25,492 nt of DNA from a virus: the IMG/VR virus record IMGVR_UViG_3300042434_000457, positions 1 to 25,492 of that record; one strand, written 5' to 3'. The notes beneath the pieces were generated by a model that ran no database searches, was not told the origin of the DNA, and was given only the letters and a program-made list of their open reading frames with translations. Positions 253-18,672 of this stretch are shown here, one piece after another. The number at the start of each line of letters is the position of its first letter. The stretch's first letter is position 1. The position numbers were made by a program, and so were the translations under genes.

Positions 253-441
253 ATGGCAGACCGTTTCTACGGCATCGACCGCGGCCTTCAGGGCGTCCGC
301 AATGTGACGGAGAGCGCATCCACGACCAGCCTCGATGTCGAGGTTCGGGTGGATCTCATCGGCATGAGCAAGCTCGAGGTGCTGCTCGCCATCGACACGC
401 TCAAGGAAGCGATTACTCAGGATACTTGGCCGCCGGCCTGA
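253..441 (+). CDS. Small conserved-type phage protein, unknown function
   Basis: This gene encodes 62 residues with an ATG start preceded by GGGAGA about 6 bases upstream. The product starts MADRFYGIDRG, has a beta-like VEVRVDLIGM stretch and then an amphipathic helix (LEVLLAIDTLKEAI). There is no signal peptide or membrane segment. It sits between the head gene and tail tubular protein A, so a small head, head-tail connector or assembly role is plausible. I do not recognise the family, and this role rests on position only. Confidence 0.6.
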   Translation: MADRFYGIDRGLQGVRNVTESASTTSLDVEVRVDLIGMSKLEVLLAIDTLKEAITQDTWPPA

Positions 442-459
442 TAGCCGCGGGAGGCGCCC

Positions 460-1062: not shown

Positions 1063-3923
1063 TGCCAAACGTCAATCCAGCCATCGTCAACTTCAACGGA
1101 GGCGAGGTGGGTCCGCTCATGGGCGGGCGCACCGACTTCGAGAAGTACGCCTCGAGCGCGCACCGGATGCGGCGGTTCATCCCGACCGCGCAGGGTCCGG
1201 CGAAGCGGTGTCCCGGCACCAAGTACGTCCTGGAGACGCGCTACCCCGACAAGCGGGTGTGGCTGCAACGGTTTGAGTTCGCGTTCGACCAGGCCTATGT
1301 CATCGAGTTCGGTGACGAATACTGCCGCTTCTACACCGATCGCGGCGTGGTTCTGGAAAACCCCATAGATGTCTCTGGCATCACGCAGGCAAACCCCGGC
1401 GTGGTCACCTATGTCGGGGCGAACCCGTCGAACGGCGACTGGATGTATGTCTCGGGCGTGGCCGGCATGACTCAGGTCAATGGCCGCTACGTGAAGGTGA
1501 CCAACGTCAATACGGGCGCAAAGACCTTCGAGCTCTACGACATCGACGGCGGCGTCATCGACACCACCAACTATGGCGCATACGCCGGCAACGGCGACCT
1601 CGAGCGCGTCTACACGATTGCCTCGCCCTACTCGGTGGATGACCTGTTCACCCCGGAGGGGACATCGGCGCTCTCAATCGCTCAGTCCGGCGACGTGCTG
1701 TATATCGGCTGCGAGGGCTATCAGCCGCGCACCCTCACCCGTTCGGGCAACACGAGCTGGGCATTCGCGGCCTACGCGCCGAGCGACGGCCCGTTCCAAC
1801 GCGAGCCGGACACCAAGCTCGCATTCACCCTGAGCGGCACCACCGGCAACGTCACGGTGTCTGCCGGCGCGGCCATCTTCGACAATGACTCGGTCGGGAT
1901 GCTGCTGCGGCTGCAACCCATCAACATCACCACGACCCAGTGGGAGACCGCCAAGACCATCACGGCGGGGAACATCCGCAAGTCGAGCGGCAAGTTCTAT
2001 GAGGCGGTGAACAGCGCCACGACCGGCGCGGTGCGTCCGATCCATGAGGAGGGGCAGGACTACGACGGCAATGCCGGCGTCCTGTGGAAGTTCCTGCATC
2101 CCGGCTATGTGGTGCTGAAGATCACGGCGGTGACCAGCACGACACAGGTCGATGCCGACATCGTCGGCCCCGGTGTCGCGCCGACCGAGCTGCTCGGGTC
2201 GGCCTCCTGCTCCTACCGCATCGGCGCATGGGGCGAAGGCATGGGCGGGGCGTACCCGTACAAGACCGCGTTCTGGCGCGATCGGCTTTGGTGGGGCGGC
2301 GGGCAGAACGTCTATGCCTCGGTGGCCGGCGACTACGGCTCCCATGCGCCCGACACGTTCGGCGAGATCTTGGCCGACAACGCGCTCAACCTGACGCTCG
2401 CGGTCGGCAACGTCGACAAGGTGCGCTGGATGCGCCCGGGCAATGCCCTCATCGTCGGCACCGCTGGTGCGGAAATCGCCATCCGCGAGAACGTGACCAC
2501 GGCGCCGCTCGGCCCGGAGAACGTGAAGTTCGACCTGCAGTCCGCGGAAGGGTCGATGGAGCTCGAGCCGGCGTTGGTTGAGGATGCGGTGCTGTTCGCG
2601 CGCGTCGGTGGCCGGCGCATCATGGAGCTGCGGTTCGACCTGCAGGTCGATGCGTGGGTGCCGCGGGACATGAGCGTCCTGTACCCGGAGATCACCCGGT
2701 CCGGCATCGTGGACATGGAGTACCAGAAGGAGCCGGATGACATCCTGTGGTGCGTCCTCGGTGACGGTCGGCTCATCGGCCTGACCTATGACCGCGAGCA
2801 GAACATCTACGGCTGGCACCAGCACCCCATCGCGGGACGGGATGCGAAGGTCGAGGCGGTGCAGATCATCCCCAGTCCCAACGGCGATCTCGACGATGTG
2901 TGGTTGGTCGTGTCTCGCGCCGTTGAGGGCGACATCCCCTATGAGCTCGCGCTCGAGGCCGGCGGCGACCTGCTGACCGAGGGCGAGGATCGGCTCGTCC
3001 TTGAAATCGACGTGAACAAGACCCGGCGGTTCATCGAATACATCGGCCAGTCCATTGAGGAGGGCGAGGACATCCAAGGTGCGGGCTACCTCGACGCATC
3101 GCTGGAGTTCAACCCGGTGATTGCTGCGGATCTGTTCCTGGCGAACGGGTACCAGACCACCGGCAGCACCAACGTGCTGTTCACGGTGACCTCGAGCATC
3201 GAAATCGCGAGCGAGGCGGACGAGTTCATCACCGCTGAGAACGGCGATCTCATCGTGGTGAATGACCCGGTGTTTGTGCCGAGCGATGTCAACCGCGAGG
3301 TGGTGCATCGGTACTACGATGCGGATGCCGAGCTCTGGCGCACCGCCCGCGCGCGCATCACGACCTACATCGACCAAGAGAGCGTGCTGACCACCATCAT
3401 CGCGGCATTCCCGAATGATGATGTCCCGTTCAACGAGTGGCGCATGACCGCGACCTCCCTGCGGGGCATGTACCACCTCGAGGGCGAGACGGTGTCGGCG
3501 CTGGCTGACGGGCAGGAGGTGACCGGGCTGCTGGTCACGGACGGGACGGTGACGCTGCCGTTCGCCGCCTCGCGCGCGACGGTCGGCTACCCCTACACCT
3601 CGACGCTGGCGACCCAGCGGTTGGAGGCCGGGGCGTCGATCGGCACGGCGCAGGCCAAGATCAAGCGCATCCACAAGATCGGGCTGCGGCTCTATGCGAG
3701 TCTCGGCGGCAAGGTCGGCCCGAGCCGGACCAACCTCGATCTCATCCAGTACCGCACGACCACCGACCTGATGGACGAGGTGCCTCCGCTCCTGACCGGG
3801 GACACCGACGTGTTCGCCTTCTCGGGCGGGTACGAGACGGACGGGCGCATCTGGGTGGTGGCCGACCAGCCGCTGCCCATGACCGTCATCGCGCTGTACC
3901 CAGAGATGGAGACGCAAGGATGA
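1062..3923 (+). CDS. Tail tubular protein B (T7 gp12-like nozzle)
   Basis: The protein has 953 residues, longer than T7 gp12 (794). The ATG at 1062 overlaps the previous stop; an in-frame TTG at 1041 is a poorer start inside the upstream gene. The N-terminus (NFNGGEVGPLMGGRTDFEKY, then a QGPAKRCPGTKYV segment) is the gp12 family signature. Residues about 121-180 (NGDWMYVSGVAGMTQVNGRY) resemble the E1-FCCH-type beta domain often seen in phage nozzle proteins. Residues about 294-355 resemble a CBM5/12-like insertion (a P-x-H-x-x-G motif, then W-K-F-L-H-P-G-Y). The C-terminal half is beta-propeller-like and Asp-rich. gp12 hexamers form the distal tail nozzle and contact the fibres. The extra length comes from these inserted beta domains, which may touch the cell surface. 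Confidence 0.88.
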   Translation: MPNVNPAIVNFNGGEVGPLMGGRTDFEKYASSAHRMRRFIPTAQGPAKRCPGTKYVLETRYPDKRVWLQRFEFAFDQAYVIEFGDEYCRFYTDRGVVLENPIDVSGITQANPGVVTYVGANPSNGDWMYVSGVAGMTQVNGRYVKVTNVNTGAKTFELYDIDGGVIDTTNYGAYAGNGDLERVYTIASPYSVDDLFTPEGTSALSIAQSGDVLYIGCEGYQPRTLTRSGNTSWAFAAYAPSDGPFQREPDTKLAFTLSGTTGNVTVSAGAAIFDNDSVGMLLRLQPINITTTQWETAKTITAGNIRKSSGKFYEAVNSATTGAVRPIHEEGQDYDGNAGVLWKFLHPGYVVLKITAVTSTTQVDADIVGPGVAPTELLGSASCSYRIGAWGEGMGGAYPYKTAFWRDRLWWGGGQNVYASVAGDYGSHAPDTFGEILADNALNLTLAVGNVDKVRWMRPGNALIVGTAGAEIAIRENVTTAPLGPENVKFDLQSAEGSMELEPALVEDAVLFARVGGRRIMELRFDLQVDAWVPRDMSVLYPEITRSGIVDMEYQKEPDDILWCVLGDGRLIGLTYDREQNIYGWHQHPIAGRDAKVEAVQIIPSPNGDLDDVWLVVSRAVEGDIPYELALEAGGDLLTEGEDRLVLEIDVNKTRRFIEYIGQSIEEGEDIQGAGYLDASLEFNPVIAADLFLANGYQTTGSTNVLFTVTSSIEIASEADEFITAENGDLIVVNDPVFVPSDVNREVVHRYYDADAELWRTARARITTYIDQESVLTTIIAAFPNDDVPFNEWRMTATSLRGMYHLEGETVSALADGQEVTGLLVTDGTVTLPFAASRATVGYPYTSTLATQRLEAGASIGTAQAKIKRIHKIGLRLYASLGGKVGPSRTNLDLIQYRTTTDLMDEVPPLLTGDTDVFAFSGGYETDGRIWVVADQPLPMTVIALYPEMETQG

Positions 3924-4348
3924 GCGTCGAGGTGCGGCCATTCGTCCCTGCCGACCTCAAGGAGCTGCGCCTACAACCGTCGCAGGAGTTCCTGGCAGCG
4001 TTCGTGGGGCGACCCGGGTATGGGCAGGAGCTGGTCGATGCCGGCCCCTGTTACACCGCCAGAAGCGGCGGCAGGATCGTTTGCTGCGCCGGGGTGGTGA
4101 ACCTGTGGGAGGGGCGGGCGTCGGCGTGGGCGCTGCTCTCTGCGGATGCGGGGCGGTGCATGACCGCGCTGCACCGGGCGGTGGTGGAGTTCCTCGACGG
4201 CTGCGAGATCGAACGGGTGGAGGCGTATGTGGTGCCGGACTTTATGCCCGGACACCGTTGGGCCAGAATGCTCGGGTTCCAGCATGAGGGGCGCCTGCGG
4301 GCGTTCCAGCGGGGTCAAGACATGGACATGTATGCGAGGGTGAGCTGA
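3920..4348 (+). CDS. GNAT-fold internal virion protein A-like (T7 gp13 / DUF2833 type)
   Basis: The protein has 142 residues. ATG 3920 overlaps the preceding stop by four bases (ATGA). It looks like a GNAT-fold protein: beta strands (GGRIVCCAGVVNLWEGRASA), the helix MTALHRAVVEFLDG, then RVEAYVVPDFMPGHRWARML followed by GFQHEGRLRAF and a DMDMYARV ending. That ending matches the gp13/DUF2833 family of T7-like phages and ordinary acetyltransferases ('GFxxEGxxRxxxxxGxDxxxYxR'). The pyrophosphate-binding Q/RxxGxG/A loop is not evident, so catalytic acetyl transfer is doubtful. An assembly or packaging role, as for gp13, is more likely. Its position between gp12-like and gp14-like genes matches T7. 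Confidence 0.75.
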   Translation: MSVEVRPFVPADLKELRLQPSQEFLAAFVGRPGYGQELVDAGPCYTARSGGRIVCCAGVVNLWEGRASAWALLSADAGRCMTALHRAVVEFLDGCEIERVEAYVVPDFMPGHRWARMLGFQHEGRLRAFQRGQDMDMYARVS

Positions 4349-4884
4349 TGGCAGATCCGATCACCATAGCCGCAATCGTCGCCGCTTCCGCAGCCGCAGG
4401 GTCATCCCTGATGGCGACCGGGCAGCAGCGGGCCGTGGGCGCGGCTCAGGCGCGCGCGCTCGAGACCCAAGCCGGGGTCGCCCGCCAACAGGCCGGGTTG
4501 CAGGAGGAGGCGCTCCGGCGCGACACCCGCCGCCAGTTCGGTGAGCTGCGGGCGGCCGGCGCACAGGCGGGCCTGACCGAGTCGGTGACCTTCGGGGATG
4601 TCTACAAGCAGGCCGCGACCGCAGCCGAGCTCGACGCCCTGTCGCTAGCCTATCAGGGCGAGACTGAGGCCGGGAGCCTCCTGACCGAGGCGCGCATCAC
4701 CCGGGCGGCACGCCCGACGTGGGTGCAGGGTATCCTGCAGGCCGCGGCTGCGGGCGGGTCTGCCTATGCCGCGACCGGCGGCACCTTCGGCGGCGGTAGG
4801 GCCGGCGGCGGCTCGCTGAAAGGCACCACCCCGATGACCAAGCGGTACACCCCGATGTCCCCGACCGGGCCGCGGTTCGCATAG
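4348..4884 (+). CDS. Internal virion protein B-like (T7 gp14-type ejection protein)
   Basis: The protein has 178 residues (T7 gp14 has 196) and its start overlaps the previous stop by one base (TGATG). It has a hydrophobic Ala-rich helix at residues 5-22 (ITIAAIVAASAAAGSSLM), a Gln/Ala/Arg-rich coiled-coil-like helix to about residue 75, and a Gly-rich C-terminus from about residue 133. gp14 leaves the capsid first and forms a pore in the outer membrane during infection. The N-terminal hydrophobic helix and position fit that role. The sequence is low in specific motifs, so the call leans on gene order and overall pattern. Confidence 0.72.
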   Translation: MADPITIAAIVAASAAAGSSLMATGQQRAVGAAQARALETQAGVARQQAGLQEEALRRDTRRQFGELRAAGAQAGLTESVTFGDVYKQAATAAELDALSLAYQGETEAGSLLTEARITRAARPTWVQGILQAAAAGGSAYAATGGTFGGGRAGGGSLKGTTPMTKRYTPMSPTGPRFA

Positions 4885-4891
4885 GTGACCC

Positions 4892-6547
4892 ATGGCGAAG
4901 CTTGAGTTCTACCGTCAGCAGGTCGTTCCGCGCATCTCGACCCCGAGCGCGCGCGGGCTTGCGGCTGTCGGCACTCAGGCTGCGGAGACCGCAGAGGCGG
5001 TCGCGCGCGGGGCGCAGGCGTTCGGGCAGCTCGCCGCCGATCTCGACCAGCTGCGGGTGGAGGATGCATACAACAAGCTGCGGGATCGCCAGACCGACCT
5101 GATGATGAACCCTGAGACCGGGTTCACGTCGAAGCGGGCCGGCGATGCGGTGGACCCCATGTTCATCCAGCGGTACTCGGGGGACTTCGACAAGGCCATC
5201 GATGAGATCGCCAACGCCCTGCCCAACAACCGGCAGCAGGATTTGTTCCGTCGCCGCGCCGGCATGGCGAAGGCGGAATACAGCGATTCGCTGATGCGGC
5301 ATGTCCTGCGCGAGACCGACCAGTACCGCGACAATGTCTACAAGGGCGCGGTCGCCACCGAGACGAACCAAGCCGCGCTCAACTGGCGCGACCCGGCGAA
5401 GATTGCCGACTCCATCGGGCGCATCGCCGCGAACACCGCGCTCTGGGCCGACCGCGCCGGCATCACCGGGGATGCGCTCCTGGCGACCCAGATGGACAAC
5501 CTAGCCACCCTGCACTCGACCGTGGTCAATGCCGCGCTCGATGCCGGCGATGTGGAGTATGCGGCGAAGTATCTCGACGCCAACAAGGCATCCATCCGTG
5601 CCGACCGACTGGTCGATCTTGAGGGCAAGGTCGCTGCGGAGACAGACCTGCGCGCCTCCGCCCGCATTGCGGATGATGTCATCGCCAAGTTCAAGGGCCG
5701 CATCCCGAGCGAGACCGAGGTGCGCCAGGCGGTGCGCGAGATTGCCGGCGACAACGTGAAGGTGCGCGATGCTGCGACCGATGAGGCATTGGCGCAGGTC
5801 GGGTCGATGCTGCGCGATCGCGAGCGGCAGCAGCAGGAAGTCATGGCTGCGGTCTACGGCAGGCTGGATGCGAACGGCGGCAACCTCGCCGCGCTGCCGG
5901 CCTCGCTGCGGGCAGCGATTCCCGGCGACAAGATTGGTGCGGTCCGAAACTACGCGAACGGGTTGCGCGGCGGCGGCAAGGTTGAGACCGACATGGAGGT
6001 CTACTACAAGTTGCGGATCAATCCGTCGCTGCTGAAGGAGACCAACCTGCTGTCGCTGCGGAACGTCCTCGAGGACACCGAGTTCAAGGAGTTGGCGCGG
6101 CTGCAGGCAGATTTGACGAACGCGCCGGAGGTGGCGCAGACCGAGATCCAGACCACGACGCAGCGCATGAACACGCGATTCGCCGAGATGGGGATCACCC
6201 CAGACCCGAGGCCGGGGACCGACATGGCGAAGCGTGTTGCCAAGGCATGGTCCATCTTGGGGACCAACATCGCGGATGCGGAGCGGGCGGCTGGCCGCAA
6301 GCTGACACCGGAGCAGCGGAACGCGGAAATCGACCGGCTGTTCGCTAGCGTTGAGGTCCGTAGCGGGCTGTTCGGCACCGATGAGGTGGCCCTGTTTGAG
6401 GTCAAGCCGGGGCAGGACATCGTGACCGTGGCGGTGCCTGACTTCGACCGCCGGCAGATTACCAATGCGCTGCGAGCCGCCGGCAAGCCGGTAACCGAGC
6501 AGAACATCCAGTATTACTTCCAGAAAGCGCAGGGGCTCGTGAAGTGA
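4892..6547 (+). CDS. gp15-like internal virion (ejection) protein
   Basis: The protein has 551 residues (T7 gp15 has 747). ATG 4892 lies 8 bases after the upstream stop. It is almost entirely helical and charged, with many Ala, Asp, Arg and Glu residues. The N-terminal TQAAETAEAVARGAQAFGQL and the segments RQTDLMMNPETGFTSKRAGD and GDVEYAAKYLDANKASIRAD are typical of podovirus gp15-type core proteins. In T7, gp15 and gp16 build the periplasmic conduit that carries DNA to the cytoplasm. It is followed by the giant gene with a GTGA overlap, so the two partners are translationally coupled. No enzymatic motif was seen. Confidence 0.75.
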   Translation: MAKLEFYRQQVVPRISTPSARGLAAVGTQAAETAEAVARGAQAFGQLAADLDQLRVEDAYNKLRDRQTDLMMNPETGFTSKRAGDAVDPMFIQRYSGDFDKAIDEIANALPNNRQQDLFRRRAGMAKAEYSDSLMRHVLRETDQYRDNVYKGAVATETNQAALNWRDPAKIADSIGRIAANTALWADRAGITGDALLATQMDNLATLHSTVVNAALDAGDVEYAAKYLDANKASIRADRLVDLEGKVAAETDLRASARIADDVIAKFKGRIPSETEVRQAVREIAGDNVKVRDAATDEALAQVGSMLRDRERQQQEVMAAVYGRLDANGGNLAALPASLRAAIPGDKIGAVRNYANGLRGGGKVETDMEVYYKLRINPSLLKETNLLSLRNVLEDTEFKELARLQADLTNAPEVAQTEIQTTTQRMNTRFAEMGITPDPRPGTDMAKRVAKAWSILGTNIADAERAAGRKLTPEQRNAEIDRLFASVEVRSGLFGTDEVALFEVKPGQDIVTVAVPDFDRRQITNALRAAGKPVTEQNIQYYFQKAQGLVK

Positions 6548-9500
6548 CGGATTACCGCCGACTGGTGGAGGAGGAGAACCCGTACCTCGACTTGGTGCGC
6601 CAAGGCCAGAACGAATCGCTGCGCTCGGCGATGTACGGCGCGGCGCAGTCCACCCCGGATGTCGAGGCCGACATCCGCAAGCTCGCCGAGAAGGTCAATG
6701 TGCCTGTCGATACCGTGCGGATCGACCGCAAGGAGATTGAGCGTCAAGCCATCCTCGGCGAGGTGGACTATGACGGGCTGATCAAGGATTCGCCTGTCAC
6801 CGCGAATTTCCTCGCGGAGCAGGCCGATGTCGCGCGCGACGATGTCAGCGTGCTGACCCGTATCGACCGGACGTTCCGTGCGATCGGGCAGGGGTGGAAG
6901 CAGGGTTCCGTCCAAGATCGGGTGGAGCCGCTGAATTGGCGCTGGCTGTCCGGTGAGATCCTCTCGCCGTCCGAGCAGGAGGAGCGGCGCAAGCTGCTCG
7001 GCGAGATGCAGGCGCTGGGCAAGACCGCAGAGCGCGGCGACAACCCGATTGCGTGGTTCCTCGGGGAGACCGGCTACACCGGACGCCAATTGGTGTCCTC
7101 GGTGCGCGAAGGCACCAAGGGCGCGATTCCCGGCGCGGTGGCCGGTGCCGGCGCGGCGGCGCTCCTCGGCCAGTTGGGTCCGCAGGTGGCGCTGCCGGAG
7201 GAGATCCTCACAGTCCCTGGCGGGTTCTTCTTCGGTGGCCGCACCGGGTTCATCACCGCCACGACGGTCTACAACTACAAGGCCGAGGCCGGGTTCGCGT
7301 TCGCCGAGTACGAGCAGATGCGGGACCAGTCCGGCCAGCTGCTCGACCCTGCGGTCGCGCGCGGAGCCGCGGCTGCGGCGGGTCTGCTGAACGCCGGCCT
7401 TGAGACGGTCGGCGACCTCGCGCTCGCCAAGATGATTCCGGGGCTCGACCGACTGCTCGGCGCCGGTTCGCGTGAGGCCATCAAGACCCTGCTGGCGCGC
7501 CCGACCTTCCGCAATGCCATCGCGCAGGCGGGCAAGAAGTGGCTAGCGGCCTCGAGCGTTGAGGGCGTCACCGAGTCGCTGCAAGAGCTTGGGGTCATCC
7601 TCGGGCGCGAGTTGGCGCAGGGCGTTAGCGGGCAGGAGTTCGCACCGGATGCGGCAGGCACCGACGTGATGCGGGTGCTGGAGTCCGGCGCGGCGGGGTT
7701 TGCCGGCGGTGCCGGCGTCGGCCTGCCGGGTGCCGCGATCTCCACGGTCAGCAACGTGCGGGAGGTCCGCAAGGCCAACCAGACCCAGCAGTTCATGCAG
7801 GCGCTCGGCGAGGCGGCCGGCGAGTCGAAACTCCGCGAGCGGCTGCCGCAGGTGTTTCAGGACTATGTCGCCCGCATTCGCGAGCAGGGTCCGGTTGAGA
7901 ATGTCTTCATCCCCGCCGATCAGTTCACCCAGTATTGGCAGAGCCAGAACGTCGACCCAGAGCAGGTCGCCAATGAGGTCGGCGCGACCAACTACACCGA
8001 GGCGGTCGCCACCGGCAGCGACGTGGTCATCCCCATCGAAGCCTACGCGACCCGGCTCGCCCCGACCCCGCACCACAGCGGCCTGATGAAGGACGTCCGG
8101 TTGGCGCAGGGCGACCTAACCATCCGGGAGGTAGAGGCGCTCGAGGCCCGCCGCAAGGAGGTTGAGGCCGAGATCCAGACCATGATGGAGCAGGAGGGGG
8201 TGGAGGCCGAGACCCCCGCCATCGAACAGGTGAAGCAGGAGGTCCTAGGGCAGCTTCTGGGGCGATTCGACAGGGCGACCGCAGACAACTATGCCACCCT
8301 CTATGCGCGGGCTATAAACAGTCTGGCGCAGCGTGGCGGCATGGACCCGATGGAGCTGCACCGCCAGTACGGGCTGGAGGTGGTCACCCCGCTGCCGGAC
8401 ATCCTGCAGGCCCGGGCCGGGGTGGACACCGCGCTCGACCCCCTCATCGATCGGCTCCGCAGCGGCGACATCCCGAGCCGGCGGGAAATCTACGGCAAGT
8501 CCCTGGCCGAGTTCCTGCGCGAGCGGGGCGGGGTGCAGGATCAGGGCGGCGAGCTCGGCGCCCGCGATGCCAAGCTCTGGGACCGCGACAACCGCCGGGT
8601 CGGCGAGAAGGCGCTAGTGTCCGAGACCGGCATGACGTTCGACGAGGCCCGCGAGCTCGCGCTCGAGGCCGGGTTCGATGTCGGCGAGACCGAGCAGACC
8701 TTCCTCGACGCCATGGACCGGGAGTTCCGCGGTGAGGGCGTGTTCATGCCCGGGAAGGAGCGGGCGGACCTGGCCGAGCTTGCCGACGCGCTCGAGGGGC
8801 TGGAGCAGTTCCTCGGGCAGCAGGGCATCGACGTCACGACCACCGACAACGCGACCGTCAAGGCGCTGATTGCCAAGGCGAGCGAGGGCATGGGCGGGGT
8901 GCCGGAGGTGGAGTTCAACCAGCCCCTCTCGACCCGGCTGCGAAACTTCGGGGTGCAGATTGAGAGCTTGGATGATGCGCGGCGGAAGTGGGATGCCGGG
9001 TTCCGCATCTTCGCGTTCCACGAGCAGGGCGACGCCCCCTATGAGGTGCCGTCCATCGAGCAGTTGGAGGCATGGACCGCCGACCAGTTGCTCGCGCTGC
9101 CTCCCAACGCCGGCAGAGCCGGAGCCGCTGGGGTCAAGACCATCGACACCGCGCCCGGGCGCTACGCACAGCGCACCGAGATGGTGAAGGATTCGGTGCG
9201 CGAAATCGCTGCGGATCGGGTGCGAACCCCGGCTGAAGCGGCTGCTGCATTCGCCACCCTCGCGCGCGGAACCCGCGAGCGGTTCGATGTGTTGGTCACC
9301 GACAAGAACGGCAAGCCGTTGGCTATCGTCGGCACCGCCATCGGCGACATCTCGTCGGCTGCGGTCTATTGGGGGCAGATCGCTGCGGAGGCATTCCGCA
9401 TCCAAGGTGCCGCCAACATCTGGGTGGCGCACAACCATCCGAGCGGGAATTACTTCCTGTCTGATGCGGACAAGCAGGTCGAGAAGATAATCCACAACAT

Positions 9501-12500
9501 CTTTGTCGGCACCGGCATCAAGCCGAATGGCATCTTGGCAATCGGCGGTGGGGCGACCATCGACAACCGCCCGTGGCAACACGCGCAGACCAACAAGGGC
9601 GAGGAGACCGGCAGAACCGGCGCGGTCGGCAAGTTGAAGAAGGTCACCGTCATCGGTCGCCAATTCGTGGAGCATGGCGCGCTCGGCCCCTCAATCATCG
9701 GCCCTGATGCTGCAAGAGAGGCCGCTGCGAGCATCGCCGGCAGGGAGTCCGGCTTCATCCTGCTCGACAACACCAACAAGCCGATCGGGTTCCTGCCCTA
9801 CGACATGTCGCAGTTGGAGAAGCTGCGCCGCCCGGGCGGCGTCGATGTCCTGTCCCGCGCCATCTCGCTGGCTAATGCCAACGGCGTGATTGGCGTCCAT
9901 CGCGGTGAGATGACGCAGCAGGGGTCGAACAACGTCATCAAGATGCTGCGGCAGCTTGATGCGCCCGCGAAGGATTTCATCAACACCGAGACCGGCGTCT
10001 CGAGCGTTGAGCAGAACAACATGTACCCCACCGTTCTCGGGGACATCTTCTTCCAGAGCGGCAAGCCCGGGAAGGAGCCTGACTCCAAGGTCAAGCTCCC
10101 GAAGAAGGCCGCGCAAGACACCGCCATCGCGCTCCGCATGGGGCCGCCGCTGACCGGCAAGCAGCGCATGAAGGTCAACGATGTCGCTGCGTTCTTCGAT
10201 CGCATCACCGGGAAGCGCGACTACAACGACCCGAAAGAGCAGAAGCGCGCGGTGAAGCAGCTCGTTGCGGAGTTGCGCTACCAGATGGATCAGGACAAGT
10301 CCGGCCTCGACTGGTACGAGCAGGACATCGCCAAGGCGTTTGAGATTACGCAGCGGCTCATCCCCGGCCTCGCCAGCGAGACGAAGCGGCAGCTGTTCTC
10401 CGTGATGGCCGCGATCCTGTCGCCGCAAACGACCGCCAACCTCAACTGGAAAATCACCGCAGAGGCATTCCAGCACTACGAGCAGACCGGGGTCATTCCC
10501 GGCGAGAACCCGAAGACCAAGGGGTTGTGGGCCGGCGGCACCCAGTCGCCCAACAAGAAAAAGCAGCTCGACATGCTCAACGCCATGGTCAAAGACCTCG
10601 GCGAGGAGAAGGCCGTCGAATGGCTGTTCTCGGCGCATACGGTCAAGGAGCTGAACGACGCCCGCAGGAAGTGGGGCAACATGGGTCCCGGCGTCGATGG
10701 CAAGATGACCGACGAGAAAATCGGCCTGTTCATGTTCGGGCCGAAGGTCGGTCCGTTCGTCGCCAACATCAATGGCATCCCTGAGCTCACGATTGACATG
10801 TGGGCGACCCGTACCTTCAACCGGTACTTCGGGCGTATGCTCGGCGAGGATGGTACAATAGTTGACGCCCCGACCGAGCCAGAGCGCCGGGTCGCCAAGG
10901 AGATCTTCAATGCAGCCGCGAAGGAAGTCGGAATCAAGCCCTACCAGGTCCAGTCCGTCATCTGGTTCTTCGAGCAGCAGCTATTCAACCACCTCGGCAC
11001 CGGAGCCAAGAGCTATGGATTCAGCGACGGAGCAAGCGACTTCGCAAGAAGCGGAGGCGTATCGGAGACTGGCGGCGGTGCTGAAGGCGCGGCGCGAAGG
11101 TTCTTCCAGAGCGTCACGGCAGGCCCCGGCTTCTACTCCGCCCTCGCCCGCGGAGTAGCCTCCCTCGAGGACAAGCCGCTGCCGGCATCCGGCTGGCAGG
11201 GCGCGCTCAATTCCCTCGTCAACAAGGGCCGCATCAAGGCCGACGAGGTCGAATGGTCTGGCATCCGCGAATGGCTGGACCTGCAGCAGGGCAAGGTCAC
11301 CCGCCAAGCCGTCATCGACTACCTCGCCGCCAACGGTGTGCGGGTAGAGGAGACCGTGCTTGGTCAGGTCAACTACGTTGAGGCCGACTTCAACGCGGCT
11401 CTGGAAGGCACCGGCTACTCGGTCAACCTCGACCGGGCCGACGATGATGACCCCGACATCGTGTATATCGACCCGGAGGGCGATGCAGTCTCTCCAGAGG
11501 ATTTGCCGGAGAATGTCCAGCAGATTGTGAACACGTACACCAGCCGGGTTGCCAACCTTGCTCGGTTCAACCGCGGGCGGTTAGTGCTTCCTGGCGGCAC
11601 CAACTACCGCGAGGTGCTGCTGCGCCTGCCGATGGAGACCCCTGCCGGCGGGTTCGGCACCATCAATTTCCCCAATGAAGAAGCCGCCGCCAGATTCGTG
11701 TCGGTTGCTATAGCGGCGGGATTCAGGTCCGAGACTGTCCGCATCGCAGAACCTTCCGACCCGTCATTCGGGCGGTTCGATGTGGAGTTCGACAACCTTG
11801 CCGACGAGGATGTCAGCCGGTTCAAATCCATCGCGGAGGATCGGTTCGGCGGGACGATTGAGTTCAGCCGCCAACCGGAGGCCAAGCGCCCGTTTACGAG
11901 CGAGCATTGGGGACATTTTTCCAATGTCCTCGCGCACTTTCGCGTCAATGATCGCGTCGATGCGGACGGCAAGAAGGTGCTGTTTGTTGAGGAGGTTCAG
12001 TCGGATTGGGCGCAGGAAGGACGCGAGGAAGGCTTTAGAGGTCGCGGCGCCACGCCGCTGAACAACGCAGAGCAGTCCCGTCTCTCAAACCTGTATGTGC
12101 GCTCGCAGAGCGATGGCAACCCTCTCTCCGCAGAGGAAGCCGCTGAGTTGGCATCCCTGCAGGCGCGCATCGATTCGCTGATTGGCAGCGTCAATGCAGC
12201 GCCGTTCGTCCAAAAGACCGACGCATGGGTTGCGCTCGCGCTCAAGCGCATCATCACGATGGCTGCGTCGGAAGGCTATGACCGTGTCGCGTTCATCAAC
12301 GGCGACCAGTCCGTCGCGCGCTATCAGTTGGACAAGGATGTCAGCGCCATTTCGTGGGAGGAGCAGTACAGAAACTTCATCGCGCTCGACATGAGGGGCA
12401 ACCCGATTGTCGATCAGTTCACCGACGCGAAGAACCTGCCGAGCATCATCGGCAAGGAGTTGGCCGACAAGCTGCTTGAGGCAGAGCCTGATGAGACCGG

Positions 12501-15500
12501 TCGCCGCGTCCTGACCGGCGTTGAGATCAAGATCGGCGGCAAGGGAATGCGGGCGTTCTACGATGACATCGTGCCGTCTGCGGTCAAGAAGATGGTGCCG
12601 AAACTCGGCGGCACTCTCAGCACCGTCCGGCTGCCGAAGACCGAGGGCATCAAACTCGACCGCGCAGAAATCGTCAAGCAGGCGATGAAATACATGCGCG
12701 GTACGCTCGATGCCAATGATGTCATCGTGTATGCCGACCTCGAGGATCTGGTAACCGAAGGCGAAATCGACAACTGGTTGATGGACTATGACGCCGTCAA
12801 CATGCCGGAGATGGCGCGTGAAGTTGCAAGAAACTTCGCCGACACGATGGTCGCGCGCGCCGCCGGCCAGAAGAAGATGACGCAGTTCGGGTTTGACATC
12901 ACCCCGGAGATGCGCGAGGCCGTGGTCGGCGGGATGCCGCTGTTCCAAGGCGAGACCGACAAGCGCGGCTATATCCAGTTCGGCGCCGACCGCAGGGTCC
13001 GCATCGGGTTGCTCGAGAAGGCCGACCTTTCGACCTTCATCCACGAGACCGGCCACTTCTACCTCGAGGTGCTGCTCGATCTCGCCGAGCGCCCGGACGC
13101 CAGCCCGCAGATCAAGGCCGACGCCGAGACGCTGATGAAGTGGTTCGGGGTGAAGTCCCGCGCCGAAATCGGCGTCAAGCAGCATGAGGAGTTCGCCCGC
13201 GCCAATGAGGCGTACCTGATGGAGGGCAAGGCCCCGAGCGCCGAGCTGCGGACCATCTTCCAGCGGGTGCGGGCGTGGATGACGCTGGTCTACCGGGTGC
13301 TGACCAACCTCAACGTGCGGATGAACGACGATGTCCGTGGCGTGTTCGACCGCATCTATGCGACCGACAAGGAAATCGAGTCGGCCAATGCCGAGCTCGA
13401 CGTGCGGGAGGTGTTCGCCAGCGCGCAGGATGCCGGCATGACGGAGGCCGAGTTCGCGGCCTACAAGAAGACCGCAGAGGCTGCCGGCGAGGCGGCGAAG
13501 GAGAAGTTGCAGGGGCGGCTCATCCGCGAGTACCAGCGCGAGCGCGAGAAGTGGTGGAAGGCCGAGCGCGCCAAGATGCTTGAGAAGGTCACCGAGGAGG
13601 TGGACTCCTCGCCGGCCTACCGCGCAGCCGCGATCCTGACCGAGGGCAAGCTGCCGGACGGCGTCCCCGTCAAGCTCTCCCGCCAGGCGCTGGAGAACCG
13701 GTTCGGCTCCGAGTACCTGAAGCGGATGCCCCGGTTCCTGCGGAAGGTCTACACCAAGGACGGCGGCACCGACATCGACACCGCAGCCGAGATGCTCGGG
13801 TTCGAGAGCGGCGAGGCGCTGATGACGGCGCTTATCAACCTGCGCCCGCGCAAGGAGCTCATCGAGGCCGAGACCGCGAACCGCATGGCTGCGGAGTTCG
13901 GCGACATGCGGCTGGACGGGACGATCGCCGACGAGGCCATGGCCGCCATCCACAATTCCGAGCGGGCCAATGTCCTGAAGGCGGAGCTCGTCGCCATCCG
14001 CCGGCTCCAGCGGCAGGTGCGCCCGGTGGTCGCTGCCCTGCGCCGTGAGGAGGCCGAGCAGCGCCGCGCCGGCATGGACATGGTCGATGCCGCCATGGCC
14101 GACCCGCAGGCGTTCGCCCGGGCTGCGGCCGGTCGCATCGGGCAGATGATGGCGCGGGACATCTCGCCCGGAAAGTACCTGCTCGCCGAGCGCCGCGCAT
14201 CGAAGGCGGCGTTCGATGCGATCCGCAGGAAGGACTACAACGCGGCTGCGACCGAGAAGCAGCGCGAGCTGCTGAACCACTACATGTACCTCGAGGCCCG
14301 CAAGGCGCAGCAGCAGCTCGACCGCATCTACGACTATGCCAACAAGTTCGACAAGAAGGCGACCCGCGAGCGGCTAGCGAAGGCCGGCGGCGGCTACCTC
14401 GACCAGATCGACGCCATCCTCGAGAAGTACGAGTTCCGGCGTGTGCCGCTGCGGGTGCTTGCCCGCCGCCAATCGCTGGCCGATTTCGCCGAGCAGCAGG
14501 CCGCGCTCGGCCTCATCGTCAATGTCCCAGACCAGCTGCTCGACGAGGCGCGGTTGGTCAACTACAAGAACGCATCGGTCGATGAGCTGCGGGCGGTCTA
14601 CGACACCGTGCGGAACATCGAACACCTCGCACGGCTGAAGGACAAGCTGCTGCGGAAGGCTGCGGCGGTGGAGTTCCAAGAGACCAAGGACGAGCTCATC
14701 AAGTCGGCGACCGAGTCCGATCGCCTCGCCACGACCGGCGAGCTCCGCATCCCCAACACGGTCGGCGAGCCGCTGCGCGCGCGCGGGGCCAAGGCGTGGC
14801 GGCGGTTCGATGCCGCCATCCTCAAGGTTGAGCAGATGGTTGAGTGGCTGGACGGCGGCAAGATTAATGGGCCGTGGGCGCGGTTCGTGTTCGACCTGGC
14901 GAATGACGCGCAGGTGAAGGAATACGAGCTTCACGCGATGGTGACCCAGAAGATCCAGGAGCTGACCGAGTCGATGCCGAAGGGCTGGGGCGATTCCCTG
15001 ACCGACAAGGTCGATGTGCTGCTGCCCGGGATCGAATCCCCGGTCACCCGCTACACCCTCATCAGCATCGCCATGAATGTCGGCAATGACAGCAACTACC
15101 AGCGGCTGCGGGACGGGTACGGGTGGAGCGATTCCTCCATCAACGCCGCGCTCGGCAAGTTGGCGAAGGAGGACTGGGACTACATCCAAGGCATCTGGGA
15201 TGCGGTCAATTCCCTGTGGCCGGAGATCAAGGCGCTCGAGGAGCGCACGTCCGGGGTGGCGCCGCCGAAGGTTGAGCCGCGTGTGGTGCAGACCCGGTTC
15301 GGTGACTACCGCGGCGGGTACTTCCCGCTGGCCTATGACCCGAAGCTCTCGGCGGTCGGCGACAAGCAGGCCGAGGCGACCGAGTCGGTTTCGCAGTTCA
15401 TGTCGAACGCCTACGGTCGCGCGCGGACCGACCGCGGCTACACCAAGCAGCGCGTCGAGAACCTGAAGGCGGCGGTGCGGCTCGACTACGAGCAGGTGCT

Positions 15501-16785
15501 GACCAGTCACCTGACCAAGGTCATCAAGGACATCTCCCACCGCGAGGCCATCTTCAGCCTCAACAAGATCCTCAAGGACGAGGAGATCAAGGAGGTGATG
15601 ATTGACCGGCTAGGCGAGGCCCGCTACCGGGAGTTCACCAAGTGGATGCAGGTGCTGGTGTCCGACCGGGCCGACACCCTGCACTCCGGGAACGTGTTCT
15701 CGCGCGCGATCATGCAGTTCCGCACCAACATGGCTATCGTCACCATGGGCTGGAAGGTCACGACCATGATGGCGCAGTTCGCCGGCATCGGCCCCGCGCT
15801 CGACACCGTCAAGCCGCGCTTCTTCACGCAGGCGCTCATCGACTACAACCGGTTCGGGCCGTGGTCCACCCACCGCGAGACCCTTGAGCAGTTCGTCTAC
15901 GATCGGTCGGGCGAGATGAAGTTCCGATCCGACAACATCGACCGCGATGTCCGCGACAGTCTCCGCACCTTGCGTGGCGAGGTCGGACCGTTGGCGGCCA
16001 TCCGCCGGTCCGCGTTCTACCTGACCGCGATGGCCGACCGGCAGATCACCATCCCGACATGGATCGGGGCATACCGTCAGGCGCTCGCAGAGGGCCTAGG
16101 GGAGGAGGACGCCATCCGGGCAGGGGACAGGTCGGTCCGGCTCTCGCAGGGCGCAGCGGGCGCTAAAGACCTTGCAGCGGTGCAGCGCGACAACGAGCTG
16201 ATGAAGCTGCTGACCATGTATTACACCCCATTCTCGGTGCTGTATGCCCGGATGCGTGACGTCGGCGCGACCACCCGCCGGGTGCGCGACATGCCCCGGG
16301 CGGTCGCCCGGATGCTGGCGCTAGTCATCCTGCCGGCGGCGCTGGGCGAAATCCTGGCGGGGCGCGGCCCGGACGAGGACGAGGACGAGACCTGGTGGGC
16401 GATCCGCAAGATGCTGCTCTATCCGTTGGCCTCGGTGCCGATCCTCAAGGAAGGTTCTGGGGTGGTCGAGGCCACCATGATAAACTTGACCGGCGAGGGC
16501 GAGATGGCGTATCAGCCGAGTTGGCGACTGTCGCCGGTCGCCGGGTCGATCGAGAAGGTTGGGCGCACGTTCATGCGGACGTCGGATGTGCTAGCCGGGG
16601 ACCGGGAGTTCAATGACGTCGCATGGGATCTGTTTGAGAGCAGCGGATACATCTTCGGGTTGCCGACGAGGCAAATCAGGATCAGCGGGGAATACACTCT
16701 CGATGTCCTGAATGACGAGCGGAACCCGGAGTCGCCGCAGCAGTTCATGTACGAGGTTCTGTACGGGCCGCCAAGGGAGCAATGA
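6544..16785 (+). CDS. Giant 3413-residue ejected virion protein (gp16 position, polyvalent-type, JAMM and zincin motifs)
   Basis: The gene starts at GTG 6544, overlapping the previous stop (GTGA), and runs unbroken to 16785. Visible parts in order: helical N-terminus; Gly/Ala-rich hydrophobic stretches at residues about 192-209 and 375-400; a RadC/JAB-type domain at about 905-1000 with the full JAMM pattern H963, H965, S973, D976; an all-helical DUF7178-like region at about 1210-1480 (LTIDMWATR); an EWSGIREWL module at about 1545-1610; a module with VLFVEEVQSDW (1812-1822), TDAWVALALKRII (1892-1904) and GYDRVAFINGDQ (1911-1922); GMPLFQ (2130-2135); a zincin-like HETGH (2167-2171) with HEEFARANEAYL from 2214; long charged helices; and a hydrophobic segment at about 3255-3273. 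This architecture matches phage polyvalent proteins that are ejected with the DNA. It is far longer than T7 gp16 (1318); Bcep22-like podophages also have a giant virion protein. No lytic transglycosylase or RNA polymerase motif was found. The likely role is conduit formation plus host modification or counter-defence. Confidence 0.9.
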   Translation: MTDYRRLVEEENPYLDLVRQGQNESLRSAMYGAAQSTPDVEADIRKLAEKVNVPVDTVRIDRKEIERQAILGEVDYDGLIKDSPVTANFLAEQADVARDDVSVLTRIDRTFRAIGQGWKQGSVQDRVEPLNWRWLSGEILSPSEQEERRKLLGEMQALGKTAERGDNPIAWFLGETGYTGRQLVSSVREGTKGAIPGAVAGAGAAALLGQLGPQVALPEEILTVPGGFFFGGRTGFITATTVYNYKAEAGFAFAEYEQMRDQSGQLLDPAVARGAAAAAGLLNAGLETVGDLALAKMIPGLDRLLGAGSREAIKTLLARPTFRNAIAQAGKKWLAASSVEGVTESLQELGVILGRELAQGVSGQEFAPDAAGTDVMRVLESGAAGFAGGAGVGLPGAAISTVSNVREVRKANQTQQFMQALGEAAGESKLRERLPQVFQDYVARIREQGPVENVFIPADQFTQYWQSQNVDPEQVANEVGATNYTEAVATGSDVVIPIEAYATRLAPTPHHSGLMKDVRLAQGDLTIREVEALEARRKEVEAEIQTMMEQEGVEAETPAIEQVKQEVLGQLLGRFDRATADNYATLYARAINSLAQRGGMDPMELHRQYGLEVVTPLPDILQARAGVDTALDPLIDRLRSGDIPSRREIYGKSLAEFLRERGGVQDQGGELGARDAKLWDRDNRRVGEKALVSETGMTFDEARELALEAGFDVGETEQTFLDAMDREFRGEGVFMPGKERADLAELADALEGLEQFLGQQGIDVTTTDNATVKALIAKASEGMGGVPEVEFNQPLSTRLRNFGVQIESLDDARRKWDAGFRIFAFHEQGDAPYEVPSIEQLEAWTADQLLALPPNAGRAGAAGVKTIDTAPGRYAQRTEMVKDSVREIAADRVRTPAEAAAAFATLARGTRERFDVLVTDKNGKPLAIVGTAIGDISSAAVYWGQIAAEAFRIQGAANIWVAHNHPSGNYFLSDADKQVEKIIHNIFVGTGIKPNGILAIGGGATIDNRPWQHAQTNKGEETGRTGAVGKLKKVTVIGRQFVEHGALGPSIIGPDAAREAAASIAGRESGFILLDNTNKPIGFLPYDMSQLEKLRRPGGVDVLSRAISLANANGVIGVHRGEMTQQGSNNVIKMLRQLDAPAKDFINTETGVSSVEQNNMYPTVLGDIFFQSGKPGKEPDSKVKLPKKAAQDTAIALRMGPPLTGKQRMKVNDVAAFFDRITGKRDYNDPKEQKRAVKQLVAELRYQMDQDKSGLDWYEQDIAKAFEITQRLIPGLASETKRQLFSVMAAILSPQTTANLNWKITAEAFQHYEQTGVIPGENPKTKGLWAGGTQSPNKKKQLDMLNAMVKDLGEEKAVEWLFSAHTVKELNDARRKWGNMGPGVDGKMTDEKIGLFMFGPKVGPFVANINGIPELTIDMWATRTFNRYFGRMLGEDGTIVDAPTEPERRVAKEIFNAAAKEVGIKPYQVQSVIWFFEQQLFNHLGTGAKSYGFSDGASDFARSGGVSETGGGAEGAARRFFQSVTAGPGFYSALARGVASLEDKPLPASGWQGALNSLVNKGRIKADEVEWSGIREWLDLQQGKVTRQAVIDYLAANGVRVEETVLGQVNYVEADFNAALEGTGYSVNLDRADDDDPDIVYIDPEGDAVSPEDLPENVQQIVNTYTSRVANLARFNRGRLVLPGGTNYREVLLRLPMETPAGGFGTINFPNEEAAARFVSVAIAAGFRSETVRIAEPSDPSFGRFDVEFDNLADEDVSRFKSIAEDRFGGTIEFSRQPEAKRPFTSEHWGHFSNVLAHFRVNDRVDADGKKVLFVEEVQSDWAQEGREEGFRGRGATPLNNAEQSRLSNLYVRSQSDGNPLSAEEAAELASLQARIDSLIGSVNAAPFVQKTDAWVALALKRIITMAASEGYDRVAFINGDQSVARYQLDKDVSAISWEEQYRNFIALDMRGNPIVDQFTDAKNLPSIIGKELADKLLEAEPDETGRRVLTGVEIKIGGKGMRAFYDDIVPSAVKKMVPKLGGTLSTVRLPKTEGIKLDRAEIVKQAMKYMRGTLDANDVIVYADLEDLVTEGEIDNWLMDYDAVNMPEMAREVARNFADTMVARAAGQKKMTQFGFDITPEMREAVVGGMPLFQGETDKRGYIQFGADRRVRIGLLEKADLSTFIHETGHFYLEVLLDLAERPDASPQIKADAETLMKWFGVKSRAEIGVKQHEEFARANEAYLMEGKAPSAELRTIFQRVRAWMTLVYRVLTNLNVRMNDDVRGVFDRIYATDKEIESANAELDVREVFASAQDAGMTEAEFAAYKKTAEAAGEAAKEKLQGRLIREYQREREKWWKAERAKMLEKVTEEVDSSPAYRAAAILTEGKLPDGVPVKLSRQALENRFGSEYLKRMPRFLRKVYTKDGGTDIDTAAEMLGFESGEALMTALINLRPRKELIEAETANRMAAEFGDMRLDGTIADEAMAAIHNSERANVLKAELVAIRRLQRQVRPVVAALRREEAEQRRAGMDMVDAAMADPQAFARAAAGRIGQMMARDISPGKYLLAERRASKAAFDAIRRKDYNAAATEKQRELLNHYMYLEARKAQQQLDRIYDYANKFDKKATRERLAKAGGGYLDQIDAILEKYEFRRVPLRVLARRQSLADFAEQQAALGLIVNVPDQLLDEARLVNYKNASVDELRAVYDTVRNIEHLARLKDKLLRKAAAVEFQETKDELIKSATESDRLATTGELRIPNTVGEPLRARGAKAWRRFDAAILKVEQMVEWLDGGKINGPWARFVFDLANDAQVKEYELHAMVTQKIQELTESMPKGWGDSLTDKVDVLLPGIESPVTRYTLISIAMNVGNDSNYQRLRDGYGWSDSSINAALGKLAKEDWDYIQGIWDAVNSLWPEIKALEERTSGVAPPKVEPRVVQTRFGDYRGGYFPLAYDPKLSAVGDKQAEATESVSQFMSNAYGRARTDRGYTKQRVENLKAAVRLDYEQVLTSHLTKVIKDISHREAIFSLNKILKDEEIKEVMIDRLGEARYREFTKWMQVLVSDRADTLHSGNVFSRAIMQFRTNMAIVTMGWKVTTMMAQFAGIGPALDTVKPRFFTQALIDYNRFGPWSTHRETLEQFVYDRSGEMKFRSDNIDRDVRDSLRTLRGEVGPLAAIRRSAFYLTAMADRQITIPTWIGAYRQALAEGLGEEDAIRAGDRSVRLSQGAAGAKDLAAVQRDNELMKLLTMYYTPFSVLYARMRDVGATTRRVRDMPRAVARMLALVILPAALGEILAGRGPDEDEDETWWAIRKMLLYPLASVPILKEGSGVVEATMINLTGEGEMAYQPSWRLSPVAGSIEKVGRTFMRTSDVLAGDREFNDVAWDLFESSGYIFGLPTRQIRISGEYTLDVLNDERNPESPQQFMYEVLYGPPREQ

Positions 16786-16788
16786 CCG

Positions 16789-18672
16789 ATGACCGTCTCG
16801 TCGACCACCGCCAGAGCCAGCTACACCGGCAACGCAACCACCACCGTCTTCGCGGTGCCGTTCTACTTCCTCGCAGCCGCGGACCTGCGGGTCATCCTGC
16901 GGACCGGAACGGCCGAGGTGGTCCAGTCCCTGACCACCAACTACACCGTGACCGGAGCCGGCAACGAGAACGGCGGGTCCATCACGATGCTGGTCGCCCC
17001 TGCCGCCGGCACCACCCTCACCATCCTGCGGAACGCGCCGGCCACGCAGGAGACCGACCTGCTCCCGAATGATCGGCTCCCCGCCGAGTCGCTCGAGGAC
17101 GCGCTCGACAAGCTCACGATGCTGGTGCAGCAGGTCGATGAGGTGGCCGATCGGGCGCTCCAGTTCCCGGCCTCCGACCCCGCCGCCTCGCCGACGATAC
17201 CCGCAGCCAGCGCCCGGGCGAGCAAGTTCCTCTCCTTCGATGCCAACGGTCTGCCGGCTGCGACGGTCGGGGTCGATGCCACGCTCGACATCTTCACGCA
17301 GGCCGGGACTGGTGCGACGCCGCGCTCGGTGAACAGCAAGCTGCGAGACACGATCAGCGCGGCAGACTTCGGTGCCATCGGTGATGGCAGCAACGAAACC
17401 GCAAAGATCCAGCTCGCGCTCAATTCGCTCCCGTCAATCGGCGGCACGGTGTTCGTGCCGGCTGGCGTCAAGTTCAACCTAACGCAGTTGACCTTCCCGC
17501 AGCGTTGCAACCTCGAGTATTACGTCGATTCCGACATGAGTACGCCGGGAACCGTCAGCGATCTCGGCTCCGGCGAGTTGGTCCTGTTCTCCTCCAACAG
17601 CAGTTACCCGACAGAAGTGACCGGAGGCATCGTCAATGAGTGGCGATTCACGGCTCCGTTCCACCCCGGCGTGGTCGTTGATGTCCGCAAGGATGTGACC
17701 GGCGCGAACCAATGGCTCGCGCCAAATCAAGACCTGACAGATCCGGCGAGGGCGTCATACAACATCCTCGACGAGCAGACTCCGCGCTGGACGAACCTGT
17801 ATATCAGTTACCCGAGAGATGAAAAGTTCTCCGGCGTTCTTGCGAATACCTACAGGACCGTAATCGTCATCTCCGGGGTCGGGACCTCAAACTGGTCATC
17901 CGCCCCTTCCGTCAATGACGTCGTTTATCAGTCCAACGGCGCGCGCGGAATGATCCTGTCGCAGACCGCAAACAGCACCACGGTGCTGTGGAATTCCGGT
18001 CGATTCGCGGCTGGCCTCCCGTTGAGATACGGCACGTCGCCGGTCAACATCAGCACCTCAAACGTGTCCGGTACCTCGTGGACCAGTACGCCGATGCCTT
18101 GGTTGGCGCAGGATTTCCGGTATGGCTCCTTCAGCATCGGGTTGCCGCCGCAGGTTCCTGAAGGCGATCTGTTCGCGGTAGGTGGCCGTATCGTTTCCAC
18201 GAACACCCGATCCGCTGGGCAGTACGTCGAGAAAACCGTCACGGAACCCGGCTATGGCTTCATCGCATCGTATGAAGGTACCCCGAGGCTTGGCCGCTTC
18301 ATGGTGTCGGAGTCGGCAAACGGCCACAAGCGGGTCGTTCTGCGCGATGTCACCGCGACGAACAACATCGCCAACGTCGGTGCATGTATCGCGCACTCGC
18401 TGATCAATGTCGGCGGAACCGGGAGCTCCTCGCGGTTCAACGTGAACACCATCACCAAGTCTGCGACCGGCGTCTATGAAGTCGCATTCACGAATGCCGC
18501 CGCCAGAGATGACTATGCGGTCATGGTGACCTGCGCCGCACCGGATGACTATGCCTATGTGACCGACAAGACCACGAGCGGATTCATCGTCCGTGTCGTG
18601 ACGCTTGGGACATCGACACCGAGAGACCTGACCGCTGCCGCCAACCTCGCCTGCTTCGGCGGCGACATTTAA
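16789..18672 (+). CDS. Tail fibre or tailspike with T7-fibre N-terminal anchor
   Basis: The protein has 627 residues. The start is ATG 16789 with GGGAG at 16774-16778 upstream. Residues 1 to about 130 match the T7 gp17 N-terminal, tail-attaching domain (TTVFAVPFYFLAAADLRVIL, then DRLPAESLEDALDKLTMLVQ). Around residue 190 the motif ADFGAIGDGSNETAKIQLAL is the usual entry into a pectate-lyase-like right-handed beta-helix found in capsule-degrading spikes. The rest is beta-rich with no visible catalytic residues. The C-terminal part (VYEVAFTNAAARDDYAVMVT) resembles a receptor-binding tip domain found on many fibres. It probably binds surface polysaccharide; depolymerase activity is possible but unproven. 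Confidence 0.85.
   Translation: MTVSSTTARASYTGNATTTVFAVPFYFLAAADLRVILRTGTAEVVQSLTTNYTVTGAGNENGGSITMLVAPAAGTTLTILRNAPATQETDLLPNDRLPAESLEDALDKLTMLVQQVDEVADRALQFPASDPAASPTIPAASARASKFLSFDANGLPAATVGVDATLDIFTQAGTGATPRSVNSKLRDTISAADFGAIGDGSNETAKIQLALNSLPSIGGTVFVPAGVKFNLTQLTFPQRCNLEYYVDSDMSTPGTVSDLGSGELVLFSSNSSYPTEVTGGIVNEWRFTAPFHPGVVVDVRKDVTGANQWLAPNQDLTDPARASYNILDEQTPRWTNLYISYPRDEKFSGVLANTYRTVIVISGVGTSNWSSAPSVNDVVYQSNGARGMILSQTANSTTVLWNSGRFAAGLPLRYGTSPVNISTSNVSGTSWTSTPMPWLAQDFRYGSFSIGLPPQVPEGDLFAVGGRIVSTNTRSAGQYVEKTVTEPGYGFIASYEGTPRLGRFMVSESANGHKRVVLRDVTATNNIANVGACIAHSLINVGGTGSSSRFNVNTITKSATGVYEVAFTNAAARDDYAVMVTCAAPDDYAYVTDKTTSGFIVRVVTLGTSTPRDLTAAANLACFGGDI

Follow-up and report, generated by a model that had tools for sequence, protein, structure and literature searches.

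The window (the whole stretch of DNA analysed, a 25.5-kb viral contig) contains a giant gene, and a preliminary description had read its product as a T7 gp16-position protein that forms a conduit and delivers two peptidases, with JAMM and HETGH active sites, against host defences. The locus raises the question of what kind of protein this is and whether the two sites belong together. The reading frame itself was as continuous as had been described. It contains no internal stop across the 3413 codons of 6544-16785 (+) and starts with a GTG that shares bases with the TGA ending the preceding gene (4892-6547). A frame of equal length occurs in an independent contig (L014), whose product is 95% identical to the window protein. 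The phrog_9880 profile covers residues 2110-3412 (E=0); the function of PHROG 9880, the family of Bbp10, is listed as unknown, and the window protein is homologous to it over the C-terminal ~1300 residues, with 30-38% identity to the proteins of BPP-1, PfDIW6, AF and Carin1. In public records, relatives (e.g. PP438410, OQ135105) go under the names 'crystallin beta/gamma motif-containing protein', 'lysis protein' and 'lysin', for none of which the domain evidence gives support.

The gene order in the window consists of gp11-, gp12- and gp14-like genes, a lysozyme-type gene in the gp15 slot, the giant gene and a tail fibre gene. The Pseudomonas phages PfDIW6 and AF have the same order, with upstream genes annotated as internal virion proteins and structural lysozyme. 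Where a relative had enough upstream DNA to be scored, a gp15-like gene preceded the giant in 118 of 128 cases, at a median gap of 0; the corresponding counts were 113 of 126 for gp14-like and 93 of 108 for gp12-like genes. The giant gene stands where gp16 does in T7, after gp14/gp15 and before the tail fibre, and, as is typical of polyvalent proteins, it is encoded beside late virion genes (PMC5512222). The proposed placement among T7 core proteins held for this position and not for homology to gp16 by sequence or fold; a profile search against PDB chains gave no hit, and Foldseek comparison of the model of the conserved C-terminal part gave no significant match in the PDB. Pfam did not reveal an N-terminal transglycosylase domain in the giant, the lysozyme-type PHROG being found in the upstream gene instead. 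Hydrophobic segments had been described at the termini; one is clear, at about residues 3250-3276, and no further clear one exceeded the hydropathy threshold. Nor is a length of 3413 aa exceptional, as had been suggested, since complete relatives reach 4200 aa. The closest prophage-like match by identity of the C-terminal part (54%) lies in a Rhodocyclales genome bin, which makes a betaproteobacterial host plausible. Beyond the tail fibre gene, positions 18686-19843 encode a tail-fibre protein with a C-terminal endosialidase-type chaperone (Peptidase_S74), a third, autocleaving protease signature in the window.

Features of the giant gene and its neighbours; nucleotide positions are those of the window and residues those of the giant protein.
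Feature	Position (nt)	Strand	Basis
gp12-like tail nozzle/tubular protein	1041..3923	+	phrog_376, E=5e-164
gp14-like internal virion protein	4348..4884	+	phrog_418, E=5e-11
gp15-position structural lysozyme-like protein	4892..6547	+	phrog_10475 'endolysin'; 'structural lysozyme' in PfDIW6 and AF
Giant gp16-position protein, 3413 aa, PHROG 9880 member, Bbp10-like	6544..16785	+	ORF; phrog_9880 profile
N-chassis, residues 1-~790	6544..8913	+	conserved in 130 relatives; L015 DNA homology ends at nt 8915
LPD22 domain inside N-chassis, residues 30-119	6631..6900	+	Pfam PF18834, E=8e-16
Cargo 1a, RadC-type JAB (JAMM) domain, residues 869-1004	9148..9555	+	Pfam RadC; 2QLC fold
E912, JAMM glutamate	9277..9279	+	alignment with 2QLC; invariant in seven divergent members
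JAMM H963-x-H965 ... S973, D976	9430..9471	+	aligned copies
Cargo 1b, JAB-like domain without JAMM ligands, residues 1034-1173	9643..10062	+	alpha/beta topology of model
Cargo 2, DUF7178 helical module, residues ~1165-1524 (core 1226-1436)	10036..11115	+	Pfam PF23802; sole cargo in L100 and L101
Cargo 3a, 'M4', residues 1528-1701	11125..11646	+	recurrent module
Cargo 3b, 'EVQSD' module, residues 1783-2032	11890..12639	+	recurrent module
Zincin-like metallopeptidase domain (putative), residues ~2112-2230	12877..13233	+	model layout; motif conservation
C-chassis, residues ~2139-3413	12958..16782	+	L015 and L016 DNA homology restarts exactly at nt 12958; 96-98% aa identity
HETGH, residues 2167-2171	13042..13056	+	motif
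E2215 (60/60) and E2222 (59/60), candidate third zinc ligands	13186..13209	+	alignment
Hydrophobic segment, residues 3250-3276	16291..16371	+	hydropathy threshold
Tail fibre/spike, T7-like attachment N-terminus	16789..18672	+	phrog_1640, E=2e-45

Relatives were drawn from annotated phages, IMG/VR contigs and bacterial genomes, and 129 complete proteins with both ends recognised, from podoviruses and prophages of the BPP-1 Bbp10 type, were used for statistics. They consist of an N part (704±105 aa) and a C part (1293±70 aa), here called the chassis, separated by a bay of 376±417 aa (range 0-2147), and their total lengths run from ~1730 to 4200 aa. Caulobacter phage SR18 is another relative. The bay of the window protein comprises residues ~791-2138. 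At E<=1e-3 the fold of the C-chassis recurred in 85 viral models, and the names of several refer to ART, MuF, nuclease or polyvalent domains. The biggest members seen were L024 (4200 aa) and L009 of Nostoc phage Nsp-JY18 (4012 aa), with bays of 2147 and 1955 aa; the bay of the latter gave no Pfam match, which points to a large store of undescribed modules. Three further loci (L083, L232 and L234) have the C-chassis, the RadC-JAB2 and M4-EVQSD modules and no recognised N-chassis, with RadC lying near the N-terminus.

Close relatives show that the chassis is fixed and that its single bay exchanges modules by recombination. Between L014 and L016 the C part of the chassis is 98.8% and the N part 98.3% identical, yet their bays, 1331 and 448 aa long, resemble each other only in a match of 27% to the DUF7178 module and are otherwise unrelated. 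L015 and the window likewise have 96.5%/93.6% identical chassis and unrelated bays; L015 DNA is homologous to the window at nt 383-8915 and 12958-17388, with no homology between, and its bay contains a PBECR5 RNase domain. Other close sets differ by the presence or absence of cargo: L019 and PfDIW6; L142, whose bay carries PBECR3 and an ADP-ribosyltransferase (ART), and L146; and, in Stenotrophomonas, L036/037/039/126 and L042/045/124. The sole cargo of L100 (chassis identity 80%/84%) is the DUF7178 module of the window, with exact joins at window residues 786|1165 and 1524|2139, which indicates natural module borders at ~791-1164 for RadC-JAB2, ~1165-1524 for DUF7178 and ~1525-2138 for M4-EVQSD. 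Module order also varies among giants (M4-EVQSD-RadC-JAB2 in L207, DUF7178-RadC-JAB2 in L210). Changes were counted along a tree of 156 C-chassis built with FastTree: the 37 carriers of ART required 35, compared with a mean of 33.3 for shuffled labels, and the full module combination required at least 91. Some inheritance was apparent for RadC (10 changes for 13 carriers) and for DUF7178 (19 for 30, in a sample enriched for DUF7178). In L102-L110 and L244-L252, giants of 1900-3550 aa, a DUF7178 module 57-62% identical to that of the window sits on a chassis matched by neither the N nor the C profile, suggesting that the module moves between unrelated giant proteins. On the minus strand of the window (20773-21953), a YqaJ-type recombinase/exonuclease (PF09588) adjoins an ERF single-strand annealing protein (PF04404), and this recombination pair of the early region could drive module exchange.

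A Pfam scan of 61 non-redundant bays identified ART-PolyVal in 25, PBECR5 in 10, MuF_C in six, LPD3 and DUF7178 in five each, PBECR3 in four, GNAT in three, RadC and PBECR1 in two each, and GGDEF and Zeta toxin in one each; the same search found no polyvalent domains in 13 C-chassis. The ratio dN/dS was 0.04-0.26 over all cargo modules (0.24-0.26 for RadC and 0.04-0.23 for the others) compared with 0.03 for the C-chassis, values which indicate that cargo is maintained as functional protein. The polyvalent modules that had been reported in the window protein were recovered above Pfam cut-offs as LPD22 (30-119), RadC (895-993) and DUF7178 (1396-1475), together with two recurrent unnamed modules, and with the zincin motif they give the giant the two or more disparate domains that characterise polyvalent proteins. 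These contents bear on whether the protein enters the cell at all. An external or assembly-only virion protein, whose middle is a surface-diversifying region, would agree with the records, including the OANV1 annotation, that call the giant a 'lysin' or a 'crystallin motif protein'; no virion or ejection data, including mass-spectrometric detection of the giant protein in virions, were found in the open-access literature. However, the bay is occupied by enzymes that work inside cells (ART, RNase, GGDEF, GNAT), the lysozyme is a separate upstream gene and the gene order matches that of internal proteins, and a protein that is not injected is accordingly a rather improbable explanation. Given its position, size, helical fold and payload of intracellular enzymes, the giant is best read as an internal protein of the virion that would be ejected together with the DNA.

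The first cargo of the window is a RadC-type JAB domain. Pfam recognised RadC at residues 895-993 (E=5.6e-12), and the domain matches 2QLC both in sequence (E=2.5e-4) and in predicted fold (TMt 0.75-0.78, E=2.4e-3, prob 1.00, from a smaller cargo alignment in which the tails of the RadC rows were partly misplaced). The JAMM residues that had been reported, H963, H965, S973 and D976, are where they were placed, and the JAB fold expected of them was predicted; E912 can be added as the glutamate, completing the E...HxH...S..D motif. All five residues are invariant across seven divergent members; among 26 aligned copies the two histidines and the aspartate are kept in every one and the serine in 25. 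In nearly every recovered copy a second alpha/beta domain, lacking the ligands, comes directly after RadC; the model suggests that this domain is JAB-like (1034-1173). For RadC-type JABs, Iyer and colleagues argued in favour of nucleic acid, and against ubiquitin tails, as the target (PMC5512222). Their argument is followed here with low confidence, and a putative role of the window cargo in handling DNA or nucleotide-linked defence is weakly favoured over ubiquitin-type deconjugation.

The cargo could form a fuller DNA-processing set, RadC plus a glycosylase fold, if DUF7178 were a DNA-glycosylase-like (HhH-GPD) domain. Its model is all-helical, and its GPKVG..TIDMW..RTFNR motif aligns with PGVGRKTA..VDTHIFR..NR of that family (hhalign E=0.02, one comparison, 34 columns). 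Against this, no DNA glycosylase was among the listed Foldseek matches in the PDB, the position of the catalytic lysine is not kept in DUF7178 and hmmsearch was not significant. A glycosylase identity therefore seems doubtful and is best treated as a weak lead.

The second metal-binding signature lies outside the bay. The HETGH sequence that had been noted is invariant as HExxH in 60 of 60 aligned relatives, whereas ~0.017 HExxH motifs are expected by chance in a protein of this composition. Conservation would be circular for loci fetched by the HExxH pattern, and the conclusion rests on other loci: the motif was kept in all 38 giants fetched through their cargo, without use of HExxH, and was present in 12 of 12 phage records found by plain tblastn. 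It falls 43±8 residues after the start of the C-chassis in every member, and is retained in all 32 members with a bay of <60 aa. In the AlphaFold model (pLDDT 83) the HETGH helix comes after an N-terminal helix and three strands, and a helix further on carries an invariant glutamate. HExxH is thereby paired with an acidic residue conserved in a subsequent helix, as in zincins, and the secondary structure of model residues 10-116 matches the layout given for polyvalent zincins (PMC5512222). Profile comparison with MPTase-PolyVal gave P=1.3e-4 over 17 columns, covering the HExxH helix only. Pfam models did not match the domain, and no solved structure in the PDB matched the zincin/C-chassis model. 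The HETGH domain is described here as a putative zincin-like metallopeptidase, and it is a permanent part of the chassis.

These results separate the two sites. JAMM and HETGH had been proposed as a peptidase pair that evolved together for counter-defence in one T7-like core protein, and both motifs are indeed present and under purifying selection. However, the JAMM module is missing from relatives with 96-98% identical chassis and is found in other orders and in other giants, and no peptidase role has been shown for RadC-type JABs. Cassette exchange largely refutes the paired model, which appears very improbable: HETGH lies in the permanent chassis, even of cargo-free members, and JAMM in an exchangeable cassette. 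Of the earlier proposal, a conduit combined with delivery survives as the best reading, from the gp16 slot in a podovirus internal-protein operon, while the two sites are no matched pair.

Taken together, these data make it likely that the giant is a large internal (ejection) protein of a BPP-1-like podovirus, composed of a permanent chassis, an exchangeable effector bay and a built-in putative zincin. The chassis (1-~790 and ~2139-3413) would most likely serve virion assembly and DNA passage, and relatives devoid of cargo show that it can function with an empty bay. The giant protein would be packaged with the genome and threaded out at DNA ejection, its chassis parts perhaps lining the path; the zincin may then cleave the polypeptide close to the bay, either within the virion or in the recipient cell, and the freed modules may hit host targets in the first minutes of infection. 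Most simply, the zincin would be a processing protease built into the chassis, and its fixed place beside the bay fits cargo release; no known cleavage site was identified in the giant. The zincin might instead serve the maturation or assembly of the chassis, or act on other head or host envelope proteins, with the cargo staying attached and no release. Its retention in all of the nearly cargo-free members indicates that cargo release is not its only role and that it has at least one other, such as maturation, and the MPTase-bearing vRNAP of N4 is packaged uncut (PMC5512222). Conversely, the zincin always follows the bay by ~43 residues, as a release protease would need, and DdrB of P1 is processed before packaging (PMC5512222). 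We consider this alternative a serious one, falling only somewhat short of an even chance. The fullest version of the processing model is that Bbp10-type proteins are a reloadable injection system, a counterpart of polymorphic-toxin delivery, in which the chassis metalloprotease cuts out bay effectors and frees them in the host; here a double-JAB RadC, DUF7178 and an unnamed module would be set against early defence. We offer it tentatively, as a possibility that is less than probable.

The suggestion that the giant represents an undescribed system does not hold at the level of domains. Predictions made for polyvalent proteins in 2017 already cover all of its domain classes, and polyvalent proteins with RadC and MPTase domains delivered with DNA have already been proposed, so the domains are not an undescribed class (PMC5512222). 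What is new, as far as our searches reach, is a fixed exchange site beside a permanent putative protease domain in an ejection-position protein; no description of a variable or exchange site with a constant protease domain in such proteins was found in the open-access literature. The bay provides a fixed address for candidate early effectors across many proteobacterial phages and prophages, and it is because effectors are hidden in giant virion proteins that early infection is hard to study. ARTs were found in only 3% of surveyed podoviruses (PMC9503650), and their occurrence in 25 of 61 bays calls into question whether delivery of these enzymes is rare among short-tailed phages. Phages that are nearly identical and differ chiefly in payload constitute a natural experiment for relating that payload to host defence, and with the conserved zincin it becomes possible to test directly how polyvalent proteins are processed, a long-standing question. 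The window also encodes, at 24276-25490, a C-5 cytosine DNA methyltransferase (Pfam E=5e-49) that runs off the contig end; as an 'orphan' methylase it would bear on restriction escape.

With RadC/JAB protein 2QLC the RadC module of the window shares the JAB fold and the complete JAMM ligands; unlike 2QLC, it is embedded in a giant and followed by a second JAB-like domain without ligands. T7 gp16 and podoviral ejection proteins (PMC8954989, PMC11440229) have in common with it the gp14-gp15-gp16-tail fibre order, a large, mostly helical C part and one hydrophobic segment, whereas the window giant is 2.6 times the length of T7 gp16 and the lysozyme domain sits in the upstream gene. Polyvalent proteins combine unrelated domains in each late-gene product, among them RadC, zincin-like MPTase, ART, PBECR and LPD, and are predicted to be injected and processed by MPTase (Iyer et al. 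2017; PMC5512222). The giant uses the same domain vocabulary, with several unrelated domains in one late-gene product; that paper, however, leaves gp16 unmentioned, and in its available part neither a fixed exchange site in an ejection-position protein nor a constant zincin beside changing cargo is described. A zincin had been noted in Bbp10 by 2013, when residues 700-1000 of that protein were among the seeds for the CLCA_X zincin family (PMC3650047). That region, with HExxH at residue 797, is homologous to the HETGH domain of the window, in which HETGHFYLE differs from the CLCA_X consensus HExxHxxxD (PMC3650047) by E in place of D. The closest known proteins are Bbp10 of Bordetella phage BPP-1 (2052 aa), PfDIW6 gp16, AF_016, Carin1 gp32 and OANV1 gp16; annotated relatives of the Bbp10 type have shorter or different bays, with the RadC module in 0 of 12, and these five share with the window giant the same chassis, the HExxH domain and the position after a lysozyme-type gene.
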